A stretch of DNA of 32,289 bases. It comes from Sphingomicrobium sp. Lineage in GTDB: Bacteria > Pseudomonadota > Alphaproteobacteria > Sphingomonadales > Sphingomonadaceae. Of this stretch, positions 27,989 through 32,289 are shown in pieces. The DNA lies in contig JANWLR010000052.1 in the NCBI GenBank assembly GCA_025450755.1, forward strand, positions 1 to 32,289. The letters are read 5' to 3'. Below the pieces are notes generated by a model. The model saw only the letters and a list, made by a program, of their open reading frames with translations. It had not been told where the DNA came from and ran no database searches. A program made the translations under genes and the position numbers. Every line of letters starts with the position of its first letter. The stretch's first letter is position 1.

Positions 27989-28642
27989 TCAGCCAGGCTC
28001 TGTTGCCAGCAATGCCGTTTCGCGCTTGATCCAGGAGGCGAAGCTGGCGCGCGCTAGGATCGAATCGATATACGCATAGACCCGCCCATGCCGCGCGCGG
28101 TCGCGACCGCAGTTCAGATGCTCAAGGTTCACGAACTGGGTCGCGACCGCGATATCGGCAAGTGTGATCCGCTCACCGACCAGGAACTCGCCGGCTTGGG
28201 GTACGACTGTCTCGAGATAGTCGAGCACCGGTGGCAGCTCGTCGCACTCGGCGGTGCTCGCAGCCTGCTCATCGCCAGATCTCCCGAAGAATCGCGGTAG
28301 GACGACGCGGTTGTAGAACATCTTGGCGCCGCAGGATGCGAGCACTGTGTCGCCATATTCCTCGAACCAAATGACTTGACCGCGCATCTTCGGGTCAGAC
28401 GGGATCAGTTGCGGCTCCAGAAAACGGGCTTCGAGATACTGGATGATCGCGCTTGAATCCGCGAGCGTGTAACCCTCGTCGCGCAGGGCCGGCATCTTCC
28501 GTAACGGACTTGCTTCCAGGAACTCGTCGCTCGGCTGCCCCGGCTTGCCTGTCGGCTTGAGCTCGAGCTCGATCCCCTTTTCGGCTGCATATGCAAGAAC
28601 CTTGCGCACGAATGGCGACAGCGAGGAACCGTACAAAATCAT
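27989..28642 (-). CDS. Glutathione S-transferase family protein
   Basis: A 217-aa GST. The N-terminal domain starts MILYGSSLSPFVRKVLAYAAEKG with a serine near the expected catalytic position, and LRKMPALRDEGYTLADSSAIIQYLE carries the glutathione-binding DSSAI motif. The C-domain has FLVGERITLADIAVATQF. It is only distantly similar to the other GST in this window (17234-17887), so it is not a recent duplicate. It is a single gene, convergent with rplI. The substrate is unknown. Confidence 0.92.
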   Translation of the reverse strand: MILYGSSLSPFVRKVLAYAAEKGIELELKPTGKPGQPSDEFLEASPLRKMPALRDEGYTLADSSAIIQYLEARFLEPQLIPSDPKMRGQVIWFEEYGDTVLASCGAKMFYNRVVLPRFFGRSGDEQAASTAECDELPPVLDYLETVVPQAGEFLVGERITLADIAVATQFVNLEHLNCGRDRARHGRVYAYIDSILARASFASWIKRETALLATEPG

Positions 28643-28729: not shown

Positions 28730-28879
28730 ATGCGCAGCAACAGCGGCAAGGATGAATCACGCGACAACCTGCAAGATCCCACCATGCGCGATCCGACGCA
28801 GCAGCGGAAGGATCCCCATCGATCCCACAAGAGCCATGGAACAGTTCCGGCCGATGACCGCGCTAGCCGCACGGACTAG
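28730..28879 (+). CDS. Small hydrophilic protein, 49 aa
   Basis: ATG 28730 is preceded by GAAGAGGA at good spacing. The peptide is very polar (MRSNSGKDESRDNLQDPTMR..., rich in D, R, S, H and T) with no hydrophobic segment, as in small disordered stress-type proteins. The TAG stop shares CTAG with the convergent 58-aa gene (28876-28879), the same architecture seen at two other sites here, which mildly supports that it is real. No family is recognised. Confidence 0.5.
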   Translation: MRSNSGKDESRDNLQDPTMRDPTQQRKDPHRSHKSHGTVPADDRASRTD

Positions 28880-29052
28880 CGGGTCTTGTAATAAATCAGT
28901 CGGCTGACGAGCTCCAGCGCAAACAACCAGCCAAGCGGCGACTCCGCCAGGTCGACTGCGACCGGTTTCGGCTCGCCAGCTTCGCGCTGCTCCGAGGCAA
29001 TCCCATTCTCAATTGCGCGTTCAGTGATCAAGCGCTGACCAGTGGTTTTCAT
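28876..29052 (-). CDS. Small protein with AESPLGWL motif, possibly a truncated DUF6456-type protein
   Basis: A 58-aa protein from ATG 29052. It contains VDLAESPLGWLFA (about 33-45), which resembles the start of DUF6456 proteins ('..ESPL-WL-RR...'), but the family's following 'aGERLR-D' helix is missing and the protein ends LVSRLIYYKTR. It could be a truncated relic or a distinct short protein. The IS element ends 28 bp upstream of its start, so its original promoter, probably shared with the XRE gene beyond the element, has been displaced. A TTG inside the IS end is also in frame. No good ribosome binding site is seen. Confidence 0.5.
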   Translation of the reverse strand: MKTTGQRLITERAIENGIASEQREAGEPKPVAVDLAESPLGWLFALELVSRLIYYKTR

Positions 29053-29072
29053 TCCGACACCACATAATTGCC

Positions 29073-29080
29073 CCTCTCTT
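29073..29080. repeat. Target-site duplication, left copy (CCTCTCTT)
   Basis: Eight bases identical to 31753-31760, directly flanking the element. Eight-base duplications are the rule for the IS1595 family. Confidence 0.9.
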
Positions 29081-29105
29081 GGCAATTATATACTTGACTT
29101 AGCAA
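29081..29105 (+). repeat. Left terminal inverted repeat (IRL)
   Basis: GGCAATTATATACTTGACTT plus AGCAA; compared with the right end it differs at positions 4, 18 and 20. On the minus strand it contains TATAAT facing outward toward the 58-aa gene. Confidence 0.9.
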
Positions 29106-29140
29106 GCATCCAGAGGGGTAGGCCTCGCAAGAGGCAAGCC

Positions 29141-30052
29141 ATGAACATCACAGACCCTATCTTCTTCGACGAAGCCAAAGCAGCCGCCCATATTGAGCAA
29201 TCGCGTTGGCCGGACGGAGAACCCGTATGCCCATTCTGTGAGAGCACCGGCATCACCCGCATGGGCGGCAAAACCCAGGCGGGAATGTTCCTCTGCAATG
29301 TCTGTCGCCAGAAGTTCACTTGCCGAACCGGAACGGTGATGGAGCGTTCGCATGTGCCTCTCCACAAATGGCTTCTGGCAACGCATCTGATCGCCGCGTC
29401 CAAGAAGGGCATGAGCGCGAAGCAGCTCGAACGTATGCTTGGCGTGACCTACAAGACGGCTTGGTTCCTCGCGCACCGCATCCGTGAGGCGATGGACGAA
29501 GCCAACAACCCGCATGAGCCGCTTGGCGGTCCCGGCAAGGTGATTGAAAGCGACGAAGCCTTCGTTGGCGGCATCAAAAAGAAGCGCCTGTCGGGCAAGG
29601 TCGCTCCCAAGAAGAAAATCGTGACGCTGATCGAGCGCGGCGGTCGCGCCCGTTCGTTCCACATCACGCATATCGACCATACGAACATTCGCGCCGCGCT
29701 GGTCACGAACGCGCACCGCTCGTCGCATCTGCGCACGGACGATGCCCGTTTCTACAACAACATCGGCCTAGAGTTCGCGAGCCACAAAACCACGCTTCAC
29801 AGCAACCGCGAATTTTCGCGCGGCGACGGCAACCACAGCAACACGGCGGAGAACTTCTTTAGCATCCTGAAGCGCGGCGTTGTCGGCACCTATCACCACA
29901 TGAGCGCCACCCACATGCACCGCTATCTCGCGGAGTTCGACATGCGCTATTCAACCAAGACGACAACGGACGGTGAGCGCGCCGCCCTCATCCTCAAGGG
30001 GATGGAAGGGCGTCGTCTCACCTATCGACGGCCTCACGACCTCGCAGCCTAA
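29141..30052 (+). CDS. IS1595-family transposase
   Basis: A 303-aa transposase. A zinc ribbon with C30-x2-C33 and C52-x2-C55 precedes a helix-turn-helix-like segment (MSAKQLERMLGVTYKTAWFLAHRIREAM, about 91-118). The catalytic core has D138 in ESDEAFVGG, D200 or D201 in LRTDDARFY, and N234/E237 in HSNTAENFFSILKRGVVGTYHH, the DDNE/DDE signature of this family. All key residues are present. The ATG 29141 follows AAGAGG and begins 60 bp inside the element; the frame is open upstream to 29042 but that would cross the element end. Confidence 0.95.
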   Translation: MNITDPIFFDEAKAAAHIEQSRWPDGEPVCPFCESTGITRMGGKTQAGMFLCNVCRQKFTCRTGTVMERSHVPLHKWLLATHLIAASKKGMSAKQLERMLGVTYKTAWFLAHRIREAMDEANNPHEPLGGPGKVIESDEAFVGGIKKKRLSGKVAPKKKIVTLIERGGRARSFHITHIDHTNIRAALVTNAHRSSHLRTDDARFYNNIGLEFASHKTTLHSNREFSRGDGNHSNTAENFFSILKRGVVGTYHHMSATHMHRYLAEFDMRYSTKTTTDGERAALILKGMEGRRLTYRRPHDLAA

Positions 30053-30175
30053 GTACTTCGAGCCGCCAGCTTGGATTGGCGAGCGCCGTATCCGCTGGAC
30101 TCAGCCCTGACTCGGCTCGTCGCATTATGAGACGGCGGAACCTCCAAAAGCTGGACCCGTTAAGGGGAATGTAAT

Positions 30176-30199
30176 AACCTAGACCGTACTTAGGTTTTT
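30176..30199 (+). terminator. Possible terminator after the transposase
   Basis: AACCTA (30176-30181) and TAGGTT (30191-30196) form a 6-bp stem with a 9-nt loop, running into TTTTT (30195-30199). It would isolate the cargo genes from transposase transcription. The stem is short. Confidence 0.4.
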
Positions 30200-30214
30200 G
30201 GTTATGCACCGTGC

Positions 30215-30520
30215 ATGGGTACGGTGTTCACGAGCGTAAGAAGGTACCGCGTCACGGTAAACTCGAACGATCATTGGCCGCGTCACGTTCATGCAATGAC
30301 TAGAGGCCTGAATGCACGTTTCAAGTTGCGATGCCCGAAGGGAACGGCTGTATTCTGGGACATTGTTCGGGGCGATTGGGACGACAAGCATCTGAACGAG
30401 CTTGGACAAGAGATCACTGACGAGATGAAGGCGTGCTGCGAAGAATGGAGTAGGATTCATGGCAAAGTTCCGCCCTATCAGCGAAGCGGCACTGAAAAAG
30501 GCGAAGGCAAAAGCGGCTGA
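30215..30520 (+). CDS. DUF4160-like small protein (cargo gene, possible toxin-like partner)
   Basis: A 101-aa protein. It contains YRVTVNSNDHWPRHVHAMTRGLNARFKL, close to the DUF4160 pattern '...NDH-PPH-HA....A---', followed by W-D-HLNELGQEITDEMKACCEEW, a helix similar to the 'L-EI---V-E-' end of that family. The last 62 bp overlap the next gene in another frame, so expression is likely coupled. DUF4160 genes are often paired with DUF2442 genes and such pairs have been suspected of being toxin-antitoxin modules; no activity is shown by sequence. ATG 30215 lacks a strong ribosome binding site and GTG 30224 is an alternative start. Confidence 0.65.
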   Translation: MGTVFTSVRRYRVTVNSNDHWPRHVHAMTRGLNARFKLRCPKGTAVFWDIVRGDWDDKHLNELGQEITDEMKACCEEWSRIHGKVPPYQRSGTEKGEGKSG

Positions 30521-30869
30521 GAACCCCACGCCGCGTGCGACTACCATCAGCTTCAATCGCACTGTCGATATGATCAATATTGAACTCAATACGGGCGCAA
30601 CCGTGTCGTTTCCGCCGGAGAAGATTGAGGGAATAAAAGGAGCGCGCCGTGCCGATCTTCTTGATGTGAGGAGCGAAGGCGGCGGCACTGCGATTTGGTT
30701 CCCTAGCCTTGACGTCTATCTCTCCGTCGCCCCCCTCCTCGAGCAGTTTTTTGGCCCGATGGAATGGGGTCGCAAGGAACGCAGGGCGGCGGCGTCTCGC
30801 GCGAATGGCAAGCGTGGCGGGCGCCCTCCTTCCAAGGCCACACATACGGAGCGCGCGCTCGCCTGCTAG
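30459..30869 (+). CDS. DUF2442-like protein (cargo gene, possible antitoxin-like partner)
   Basis: A 136-aa protein from ATG 30459 with GGAGTAGGA upstream. The core VDMINIELNTGATVSFPPEKIEGI followed by EGGGTAIWFPSLDVYLSVAPLLEQFFG fits DUF2442 ('-L---F-DG-...I-WP--D-D----L'). The C-terminal ASRANGKRGGRPPSKA basic motif, resembling 'A-RANG--GGRPRK', is frequent in these proteins and could contact DNA. It overlaps the DUF4160-like gene by 62 bp and shares CTAG (30866-30869) as stop with the convergent small gene. A regulatory or antitoxin role is inferred. Confidence 0.7.
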   Translation: MAKFRPISEAALKKAKAKAAENPTPRATTISFNRTVDMINIELNTGATVSFPPEKIEGIKGARRADLLDVRSEGGGTAIWFPSLDVYLSVAPLLEQFFGPMEWGRKERRAAASRANGKRGGRPPSKATHTERALAC

Positions 30870-30997
30870 GGCTTCCGCCTGCGACCTAGCTTGCTGTCCT
30901 TCTGCCGCTTCGGCGGCGTCGCCAGCATCCGCTTCAACGCCGCTTCCCGCCGCGCTACAGTTTCTTCTTGGGTATATGTCTCATGGCTATCCGACAT
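30866..30997 (-). CDS. Small basic protein, 43 aa, antitoxin-like (cargo gene)
   Basis: ATG at 30995-30997 (minus strand) with AGGA eight bases upstream. The peptide reads MSDSHETYTQEETVARREAA and continues LKRMLATPPKRQKDSKLGRR plus RKP. An acidic helix 'EE--ARR-AALKR-L-TPPK' followed by a basic tail is a pattern seen in many short alphaproteobacterial genes near toxin-like genes (recalled pattern). It is divergent from the 195-aa gene (14 bp between starts) and convergent with the DUF2442-like gene, with which it shares CTAG as stop. Confidence 0.6.
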   Translation of the reverse strand: MSDSHETYTQEETVARREAALKRMLATPPKRQKDSKLGRRRKP

Positions 30998-31011
30998 CTG
31001 GGATTTCCTAA

Positions 31012-31599
31012 ATGACCGACCAAGCAGACTTATACGGCGGCCTGATAACGGAAGCCAGATTTCGGATTGAAGCAGTAGAGCGCCTATTGGCGCGCTCGAA
31101 TATGCCTCCCCGCATCATTGAAGAGCTTTGCTATCTCCAACTGAGGTTGCTTTGCGAGGTGATTGCGCTCGGCTGCCTCGTCGCACACGGAGACATACGC
31201 ACCCGAAAGATGATGCGCGAAAGTAAGCCAGGAATTATCTTCAAACAGTTGGAGGCGCTGCACCCCAACTTCTACCCAAAAGCCGTCATACTATCGTTGC
31301 GAAACGGCGGCCTGCACGTCGAGCCCCGACCGGGCCCTTGGTTGTCCAAGGACGATCTAAAAACTCTCTGGAAGAAATCAGGCAATGAGCTTCACAGAGG
31401 GAACGTGGCACGCCTTCTGTCCGGCCCTAATCCAGCGCCCGTCAACCTCGCTGCGGTGCGAACGTGGGTGCAGAAGATCCGCAACCTCCTACACAATCAC
31501 CAAATCTCGTCGCGCGACAACAAACGACATTACCTCGTTCTGCTGTCCGACGCGGACAATGGGGGCAACGCAGGCGTAATTACTGCCGCTTCCCCTTGA
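31012..31599 (+). CDS. Cargo protein of unknown function, 195 aa
   Basis: The N-terminal half is helical (ITEARFRIEAVERLLARS, then IIEELCYLQLRLLCEVIALGCLVAHGDI, about 12-62), followed by LEALHPNFYPKAV, a polar middle, and WKKSGNELHRGNVARLL (about 118-134). The end HYLVLLSDADNGGNAGVITA looks like beta strands. I recall similar uncharacterised proteins in alphaproteobacteria with the same 'YLQLR-LCE-IALGCLVAHGD' and 'G-ELHRG' blocks, but know no function. GC is visibly lower than in chromosomal neighbours. A weak GGGA precedes ATG 31012. It is the last gene before the right end of the element. Confidence 0.7.
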   Translation: MTDQADLYGGLITEARFRIEAVERLLARSNMPPRIIEELCYLQLRLLCEVIALGCLVAHGDIRTRKMMRESKPGIIFKQLEALHPNFYPKAVILSLRNGGLHVEPRPGPWLSKDDLKTLWKKSGNELHRGNVARLLSGPNPAPVNLAAVRTWVQKIRNLLHNHQISSRDNKRHYLVLLSDADNGGNAGVITAASP

Positions 31600-31727
31600 T
31601 CCCGACAATTCACCAAACTTCGGGTGAGTCAGAGAATCTAATGCTCCCGCCGCGCCTCAAGGCAGCGGAGCTAATCACCCCTCTGGTTACCGGCCTGTCA
31701 CGCTGGTTTTCCATAGCGAATCACCTT

Positions 31728-31752
31728 TTGCTCATTCAAGTATATAATCGCC
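31728..31752 (-). repeat. Right terminal inverted repeat (IRR)
   Basis: Reverse complement begins GGCGATTATATACTTGAATG and ends AGCAA, matching IRL at 22 of 25 positions. On the plus strand it contains a perfect TATAAT (31743-31748) facing the XRE gene. Confidence 0.9.
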
Positions 31753-31760
31753 CCTCTCTT
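31753..31760. repeat. Target-site duplication, right copy (CCTCTCTT)
   Basis: Identical to 29073-29080 and directly adjacent to IRR. Confidence 0.9.
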
Positions 31761-31773
31761 GCCACAGCGGCAA
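31759..31773. promoter_or_regulatory. Candidate operator TTGCC-N5-GGCAA upstream of the XRE regulator
   Basis: A perfect 5-bp inverted repeat with a 5-bp spacer, starting within the target duplication. It lies about 55 bp before the XRE start, in what was the divergent promoter region before insertion. A second palindrome, AACCGGTT, is at 31798-31805. Either could be an autoregulatory site; this rests on symmetry alone. Confidence 0.35.
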
Positions 31774-31828
31774 AAGTGTAGGACAGATAGGAAACCAAAC
31801 CGGTTCGTTAGGAAGATGGGTTGAGGTC

Positions 31829-32289
31829 ATGATCACACGCATTCGCGAGGTCCGCCGTGCACGTGGAATGACACTCGACGACGTTGCTCGAAATTGCGAT
31901 CCGCCGACGACTCCTCAGACAGTTGGCCGGCTCGAGACGGGCACGCGGACGGTGTCGGTGGGTTGGCTCAACCGCATTGCCAGCGCGCTTGGCGTCGAGG
32001 CGCAGGATCTGGTTCGGGGAAGTGAGAGCGCGGAACTCAACGTCGCCGCGATTCTTGGGCCCGGCGGCGCCGCCGCTCCCAGGAAAGCCACGATCGTCGT
32101 TCCGCCACGCGTCGAGCAGGCCCAGATTGCCGTTCTCGTCGGCGCAAGCCTGGGTGATTATCGCACTGGCGATGAGTTATGGTGCGAAACGCTTGACCCC
32201 GGCTCTTTCGCCCTTGCGCTCAACCGCGATGTGCTCGTGCCGCGACCGGCCGGGCGCTTCCTCTTCGGCCGGCTCATCAATCGCGACGA
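31829..32289 (+). CDS. XRE-family HTH transcriptional regulator (partial, runs off the window)
   Basis: ATG 31829 with TGAGG upstream; 153 codons are visible and the frame is open at the end. The N-terminus is a helix-turn-helix (ITRIREVRRARGMTLDDVAR, then PQTVGRLETGTRTVSVGWLNRIASALGV, residues 2 to about 60). The following region (KATIVVPPRVEQAQIAVLVG, then TGDELWC-LDPGSFALALNRDVLVPRPAGRF) resembles a LexA/S24-like ligand or dimerisation domain without enough sequence to check a catalytic serine-lysine pair. Before insertion of the IS element it was divergent from the 58-aa gene with under 100 bp between starts. Confidence 0.85.
   Translation, partial: MITRIREVRRARGMTLDDVARNCDPPTTPQTVGRLETGTRTVSVGWLNRIASALGVEAQDLVRGSESAELNVAAILGPGGAAAPRKATIVVPPRVEQAQIAVLVGASLGDYRTGDELWCETLDPGSFALALNRDVLVPRPAGRFLFGRLINRD

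Follow-up and report, generated by a model that had tools for sequence, protein, structure and literature searches.

Does a cargo-bearing transposon stand where it stands by accident, or does its lineage return to one base of the chromosome? The question is raised by a stretch of 32,289 nucleotides from Sphingomicrobium sp. (NCBI GenBank assembly GCA_025450755.1, contig JANWLR010000052.1, positions 1 to 32,289, forward strand), here called the window, which carries near its right end an IS1595-family transposon with four open reading frames (ORFs) besides the transposase. What stands out is that one clade of cargo-bearing IS1595 elements has returned repeatedly to exactly the same chromosomal site, a pattern that is not visible from the window alone. 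The window's copy is intact, and we consider it likely that its lineage has come to favour a single chromosomal target strongly in the genus (Sphingomonas/Sphingomicrobium).

The transposon and its relatives

The element is delimited in the window by the following features.

29081..31752, plus strand: IS1595-family transposon, 2672 bp, recognised by its ends, target duplication and transposase
29073..29080, no strand: left copy of the 8-bp target duplication CCTCTCTT, read from the sequence
31753..31760, no strand: right copy of the 8-bp target duplication CCTCTCTT, read from the sequence
29081..29105, plus strand: left inverted repeat, 25 nt, from a search for inverted pairs
31728..31752, minus strand: right inverted repeat, 25 nt, from the same search
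29141..30052, plus strand: IS1595-family transposase, 303 aa, from NCBIfam, Pfam and conserved residues

Members of the IS1595 family are characterized by terminal inverted repeats with an 8-bp target duplication and by a D, D, E...K active-site pattern. All of these traits are present in the window element, together with the family's transposase domain and zinc ribbon. The arms of its ends are 88% complementary (22/25) and ranked first among the 73 inverted pairs of the region. The transposase matches the NCBIfam IS1595 transposase model NF033547 (E 3.5e-48, 164 bits, cut-off 75) and the Pfam families DDE_Tnp_IS1595 (PF12762, 83 bits, cut-off 27) and Zn_ribbon_IS1595 (PF12760, 37.6 bits, cut-off 25.4), and its residues D138, D200, E237 and K244 are unchanged across 8 aligned sequences. 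The original prediction of an intact IS1595-family transposon with 25-bp ends, an 8-bp duplication and catalytic residues is thus borne out. Its boundaries were well defined as claimed, with one correction: the interval 29073-31760 given at the time includes both duplications, and the element proper spans 29081-31752. Its own genome, a draft of 2.19 Mb with a completeness rating of 84%, contains the element once.

Among 71 genomes of the genus, 28 gave transposase matches at E <= 1e-30. Named genome contigs were scanned as well and yielded 46 loci, comprising 43 from Sphingomonadales, two from Brevundimonas and one from a Solirubrobacteraceae metagenome-assembled genome; carriers include Sphingomonas cremea, S. 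rhizophila, S. segetis, S. edaphi and S. caseinilyticus. Both ends and an identical 8-bp duplication were readable in 29 of the 46 (ten from genomes already in the set and 19 new), and the remaining 17 were excluded; the comparison of architecture used 36 elements. Since relatives hold elements that likewise have such ends and a matching 8-bp duplication, these features of the window are not due to chance.

Repeated insertion upstream of one regulator gene

Two features to the right of the transposon define the insertion site.

31829..32287, plus strand: XRE-type helix-turn-helix (HTH) regulator adjoining the insertion site and running off the window, from orthologs and from HTH-family matches below cut-off
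31759..31786, plus strand: conserved promoter-like motif TTGCCA...TGTAGGACAG, its TT within the duplicated target, from base frequencies over orthologous sites

Orthologs of the regulator, all of whose matches to HTH families are under the cut-off, are present in 65 of the 71 genomes of the genus. They provide 66 orthologous sites (the window's own included), of which 9 are occupied by an element, 56 are empty and 1, in G033, is undecidable because the contig ends there. Relatives thus do have the empty site, and neither of the two outcomes that would have contradicted the original prediction was seen. Occupancy was read by eye: the site at L026 was missed by the regular expression for the motif and counted as occupied, and G017, G093 and the second copy in G090 gave no motif by a separate expression and were read as empty. 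G090 is a draft with two regulator orthologs (contigs C72 and C80, 75% and 66% identical to that of the window), one with an occupied and one with an empty site, and it is possibly a mixed bin.

At all 9 occupied sites the end of the element is followed by 8 bp and then by GCCA. Across 57 element-free sites (a set that includes the 8 visible bases of G033) the sequence CTT|GCCA around the cut and the downstream TGTAGGACAG are near-invariant (C 93%); the duplication in G015 ends with ATT. The distance from the cut to the start of the regulator is 55-88 bp with a median of 60. In the window (31758-31786) and at the orthologous loci, strong conservation ahead of the regulator covers CTTGCCA-N-TGTAGGACAG and the AACC-N5-GGTT behind it. 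Within the 40 bp upstream, 44 of the 57 sites contain GANTC, the CcrM methylation site in alphaproteobacteria, and its start is mostly at -15 to -17; the shuffled expectation is 11%.

Are these occupied sites the remains of one event? The occupied copies do share one orthologous site and one transposase clade, which is what would be expected if a single ancestral insertion had descended vertically, had been lost in most species and had later exchanged its cargo by recombination. The duplications speak otherwise. In the 8 occupied genomes where both ends are readable (in the ninth, G081, the far end lies off its contig) the two copies of the duplication match each other perfectly (8/8), and the duplications all differ between genomes. 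Orientation is mixed at 5:4, the transposase pointing towards the regulator in G000 (the window's genome), G084, G015, G090 and G030 and away from it in G007, G014, G076 and G081, and the on-site elements differ in cargo. In G014 (L024 754-5680) two different IS1595 elements stand in tandem on the site, with transposases 63-64% and 82% identical to that of the window and one 8-bp sequence, AAGAGGCG, occurring three times.

Phylogenies point in the same direction. One clade of 12 members (97/96) in the transposase tree unites all 10 on-site copies, two of them from a single site, with 2 off-site copies; the on-site label requires 3 changes, compared with a mean of 9.0 in shuffled labels, none of 500 of which was as low (the shuffles test clustering only). 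The regulator tree has 64 rows, and on it the distribution of the 9 occupied genomes requires 9 changes, against a shuffled mean of 8.6 with 500 of 500 shuffles as low, although strongly supported branches force only 4 of these changes. This tree omits G010 (an ortholog with a stop) and G020 (cut), scores G033 as not occupied and includes G090 as two rows. Since 9 changes are what shuffled labels give, occupancy is not clustered by descent, and clade-restricted use of the site combined with scattered hosts indicates a lineage with a target habit that inserted many times rather than one ancient insertion. Vertical inheritance of one insertion was accordingly rejected on the differing duplications, mixed orientation and scattered hosts, and we regard such a history as highly improbable.

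We propose that the transposase, alone or guided by site-bound host proteins, would make an 8-bp staggered cut at N6TT directly 5' of GCCA, within the promoter-like region about 60 bp upstream of the conserved XRE regulator. Duplication would then return TT to the regulator side. As this TT lies inside the duplicated 8 bp, the regulator-side motif would be rebuilt and the insertion is probably harmless, so that the element could be kept and could spread with exchangeable small cargo.

A harmless insertion also suggests another reading, in which elements insert broadly and only copies at this permissive spot survive selection. The intact regulator motif and the small size of the host genomes fit this notion. 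Permissiveness, however, does not suffice for insertion at the same base in both orientations; neighbouring intergenic positions should survive too, and sister lineages of the same genus persist elsewhere. Survival at a safe position is therefore quite unlikely as the explanation, and a target preference of the lineage accounts better for the pattern. A test of gene disruption by ORF length contributes little here: the reconstructed empty target contains an ORF of more than 300 aa at 8 of 19 sites outside the genus, and four of five supposedly intergenic on-site targets also gave 178-282 aa.

Alternatively, targeting could depend on a host protein, or on RNA polymerase at a class of promoters, as in TnGBS, rather than on recognition of DNA by the transposase. 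This would be a mechanism within the target-preference explanation. The base beside the cut opens the strongly conserved motif, and GANTC lies upstream at most sites, as described above. Sequence TGTAGGA, moreover, lies within 40 bp of 2 of 6 off-site insertions in the genus (shuffled mean 0.07; G034 omitted) and near 1 of the 19 insertions from named contigs in other genera (shuffled mean 0.21), a hint that promoters of this class are sensed by sister lineages too. PMC3942029 describes TnGBS-type elements as targeting promoters. TnGBS, ISLre2 and ISKra4 likewise direct insertion to promoter regions, but they are Mutator-type elements that insert 15-17 bp upstream of the -35 box, TnGBS in fixed orientation, whereas here an IS1595-type element enters the upstream region of one gene, the cut abuts the motif, and position is fixed while orientation is mixed 5:4. 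The strict motif also occurs in 40 of 249 genomes of the family, 37 of them outside the genus (two genomes have two copies), and 9 of the 12 motif loci fetched hold a regulator match. Among the named-contig loci, however, elements outside the genus never adjoined the regulator. Host-set targeting is a genuine possibility, though we lean against it, and the transposase itself may select the site.

Two results count against a site preference of the lineage. The absence of a regulator match beside the named-contig elements outside the genus implies that the preference is clade-specific and not a general habit, and 2 of the 12 clade members, in G034 and in a viral contig, are off-site. In G034 (L131 4188-6539) the two outer 8-mers are unlike each other, which suggests recombination between copies or an adjacent deletion. 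The viral contig (L002 3938-6136) carries an element whose transposase is 90% identical to that of the window and which has its own 8-bp duplication, GGGGCCAC; phages may move these elements. Collections of plasmids and phages contained no close transposase relatives, all being under 60% identity.

The left flank of the window's site bears two further features.

29064..29072, no strand: ATAATTGCC, probably left over from the end of an element that stood here before, matching the 9 terminal bases of many intact ends
27989..28642, minus strand: glutathione-S-transferase-like gene on the other side of the insertion site, which adjoins the site in many relatives (named by its sequence, not by a family search)

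The 9 bases of ATAATTGCC directly abut the left duplication from outside and are identical to the last 9 bases of an element end. An earlier copy probably once stood in tandem at this site, comparable to the tandem pair in G014. The stretch before a small upstream ORF (28876-29053, minus strand) does not have the GANTC and the CTCC-type bases that are present in relatives, as if the earlier copy had been deleted together with some native sequence.

A constant small protein and exchangeable cargo

The four cargo ORFs foreseen in the original prediction are all present.

30215..30520, plus strand: DUF4160-like protein, 101 aa, putative DhiT-type toxin, from a Pfam match below cut-off and a gene order as in dhiTA
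30459..30869, plus strand: DUF2442 protein, 136 aa, putative DhiA-type antitoxin, from a Pfam match above cut-off and a PDB match
30866..30997, minus strand: p43, a 43-aa small protein marking this transposon group, from its recurrence in related elements and its pN/pS
31012..31599, plus strand: p195, a distal-slot cargo protein of 195 aa from an unnamed family, with relatives inside such elements and no conserved HEPN motif

The 36 elements follow a common plan, in which the transposase is followed by a variable slot A, by p43 on the opposite strand, and by a divergent distal ORF (slot B) of 158-279 aa that is present in 34 of them, and cargo is enclosed by the ends in the elements examined. 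Slot A would hold a DhiTA-type pair in the window. In G076, a sister element occupying the same site, this slot contains an HTH_3 protein next to a HigB-like toxin; it contains DUF3892 in G068 and an NYN protein in the more distant G030b. By eye, slot A of some other elements appears membrane-protein-like, and its small ORFs in G014a, G064 and L198 share an NQGRVSEVxxGKR-like sequence and look like a short HTH-like protein. Recurrence of the exact four-gene cargo, as had been envisaged, was not found among 19 other elements and was rejected: neither the DUF4160 nor the DUF2442 protein of the window matched the ORFs of these elements (one incomplete) at E 1e-4, p43 recurs widely, and p195 recurs in 3 other genomes.

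The DUF4160-like match covers positions 2-64 of 65 at 19.3 bits, under the 23-bit Pfam cut-off, and the DUF2442 match reaches 31.3 bits (cut-off 23.9) with a further match to PDB entry 3k8r, an uncharacterized protein (E 8.1e-11). In PMC8198452, dhiTA (DUF4160/DUF2442) is a functional toxin-antitoxin (TA) pair in Dickeya dadantii and E. coli, with the toxin gene first and overlapping its partner; PMC12724237 reports that on Thermus plasmids the same domains form a module for persistence, in which the first ORF seems to be neutralised by the second, and a table in PMC12654330 lists the pair as a TA annotation. The window's pair has the toxin-like ORF first and overlapping ORFs in common with these systems. 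It differs in standing between IS1595 ends, in the weak DUF4160 match and in an overlap of 62 nt, and its function is putative. Because the DUF4160 match falls under the cut-off, assignment to DhiT/DhiA is likely without being certain. Of 296 genomes of the order, 6 (own included) have DUF2442 relatives at E <= 1e-8; a DUF4160-like match lies beside DUF2442 at 3 of the 5 other loci, and no IS1595 transposase was found at any of the 5. The pair thus exists independently and was probably acquired by the window element.

The most constant cargo is p43. Of 396 genomes in the order, 39 have it, and an IS1595 transposase match is present at 28 of 30 fetched p43 loci (some of these matches are partial). 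A sequence pattern identified it in 23 of the 36 elements and tblastn in at least 7 of the remaining 13 (G014b, L173, L176, L178, L184, L185 and L210); a search of plasmids gave no useful result. In 16 of the 23 elements the start codon of p43 overlaps that of the distal ORF as CATG; in the window the two lie 14 nt apart. The ratio of nonsynonymous to synonymous polymorphism (pN/pS) is 0.285 in the p43 frame, 0.345 in the best other frame and above 1.2 in the remaining four. Coding is favoured on this basis and antisense noise was rejected, with a small margin over the mirrored frame. We infer that p43 is a core accessory protein of this group of elements.

Slot B mostly appears to hold HEPN-like proteins elsewhere, and the p195 family here. 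Relatives of p195, which matched nothing in Pfam or NCBIfam, occur in 4 of 71 genomes of the genus including its own, the 3 others each inside such an element; the family (G000, G014b, G066 and G076) has a conserved LHxG. Other genera include relatives that had no IS1595 end or transposase within the fetched stretch, and searches for p195 in viral contigs and, by sequence, in PDB gave no useful result. The motif R[NDH]xxxH, a form of the HEPN motif described in PMC3710099 (where DUF4145 is a HEPN family), is found in 25 of 34 distal ORFs with that of the window and 24 without it, compared with a shuffled mean of 2.07 and a maximum of 7 in 1000, although many of the 34 are mutually related and the 25 are not independent cases. 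Most slot-B proteins of sister elements have the Rx4-6H motif with a polar residue after R that is typical of the HEPN superfamily, and DUF4145 matches G088 at 26.3 bits (cut-off 23.1) and G014a at 21.4, below cut-off. The method hhalign links several slot-B clusters with a best probability of 96%, and joined neither p195 nor the DUF4145-like group at more than 20%.

Several of these results are unfavourable to a defence or addiction role of the cargo. The RNGGLH and RDNKRH sequences of p195 are not kept in its 3 relatives, so that no Rx4-6H motif is conserved and p195 counts among the 25 by chance matches only. Foldseek found nothing at E <= 0.001 for the p195 model, with the HEPN toxin 7ae6 ranking 26-27 at E 1.6, and likewise nothing at that threshold for the model of a clear RNxxxH protein. 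Ten cargo proteins compared with PADLOC gave a single weak match (E 0.027), the DUF4160 match is below its cut-off, and p43 stays constant while its neighbours vary, which agrees poorly with a role as specific antitoxin. The reading of p195 as a recognised HEPN protein was rejected, its motifs being unconserved and its sequence and model having no useful PDB sequence match and no significant fold match.

Might the slots then hold neutral passengers or regulators of transposition? A p43 that is constant and tied to the transposase is what a transposition accessory gene would look like, and the PADLOC result agrees. The slots, however, include two TA families and HEPN-like proteins, and their contents vary between close relatives. 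Cargo with neither an addiction nor a defence role seems rather unlikely to us. Of the earlier proposal that the cargo serves addiction or defence, the addiction type is plausible by analogy, given the tested dhiTA pair and the HigB-like and HTH_3 proteins in G076, and the DUF4160 match below cut-off leaves it qualified; an anti-phage role would be possible for the HEPN-like slot.

Relation to known elements and meaning of the site

Passenger genes are known in members of the IS1595 family. Such elements share with the present group the transposase domain and zinc ribbon, related ends, the 8-bp duplication and cargo downstream of the transposase, and the present group differs from them in the recurrent exact-site insertion by one clade and in its fixed p43 and divergent, mostly HEPN-like slot. 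Tn7, which uses attTn7, is similar in having a safe single chromosomal target; here there is one transposase gene, and no target-selector protein was recognised in the element. To our knowledge, single-transposase DDE elements rarely show true single-site specificity. TA pairs integral to some Tn3-family transposons, one with HEPN-MNT, are described in PMC7157771 and similarly place small TA pairs inside a transposon; the present elements have a transposase of another family, no recognised MNT partner, and a p43 divergent from its neighbour. The literature matches listed, which cover the field in part and are therefore weak evidence, contained no description of these elements or of any IS1595 with site specificity.

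These comparisons lead us to speculate, with a confidence somewhat short of even, that the group is a site-specific cassette shuttle: a single-transposase element homing to one regulator promoter, which would serve as a replaceable, sometimes tandem, platform for TA and HEPN-type immune genes, with p43 as a dedicated accessory either of transposition or of the HEPN partner.

A site-specific clade beside sister lineages that insert elsewhere makes the specificity mappable by comparison of transposases. The panel of occupied and empty sites across species represents a natural experiment on the movement and persistence of small TA and HEPN-like genes, and the target position points to a motif, strongly conserved and still unexplained, ahead of an XRE regulator.

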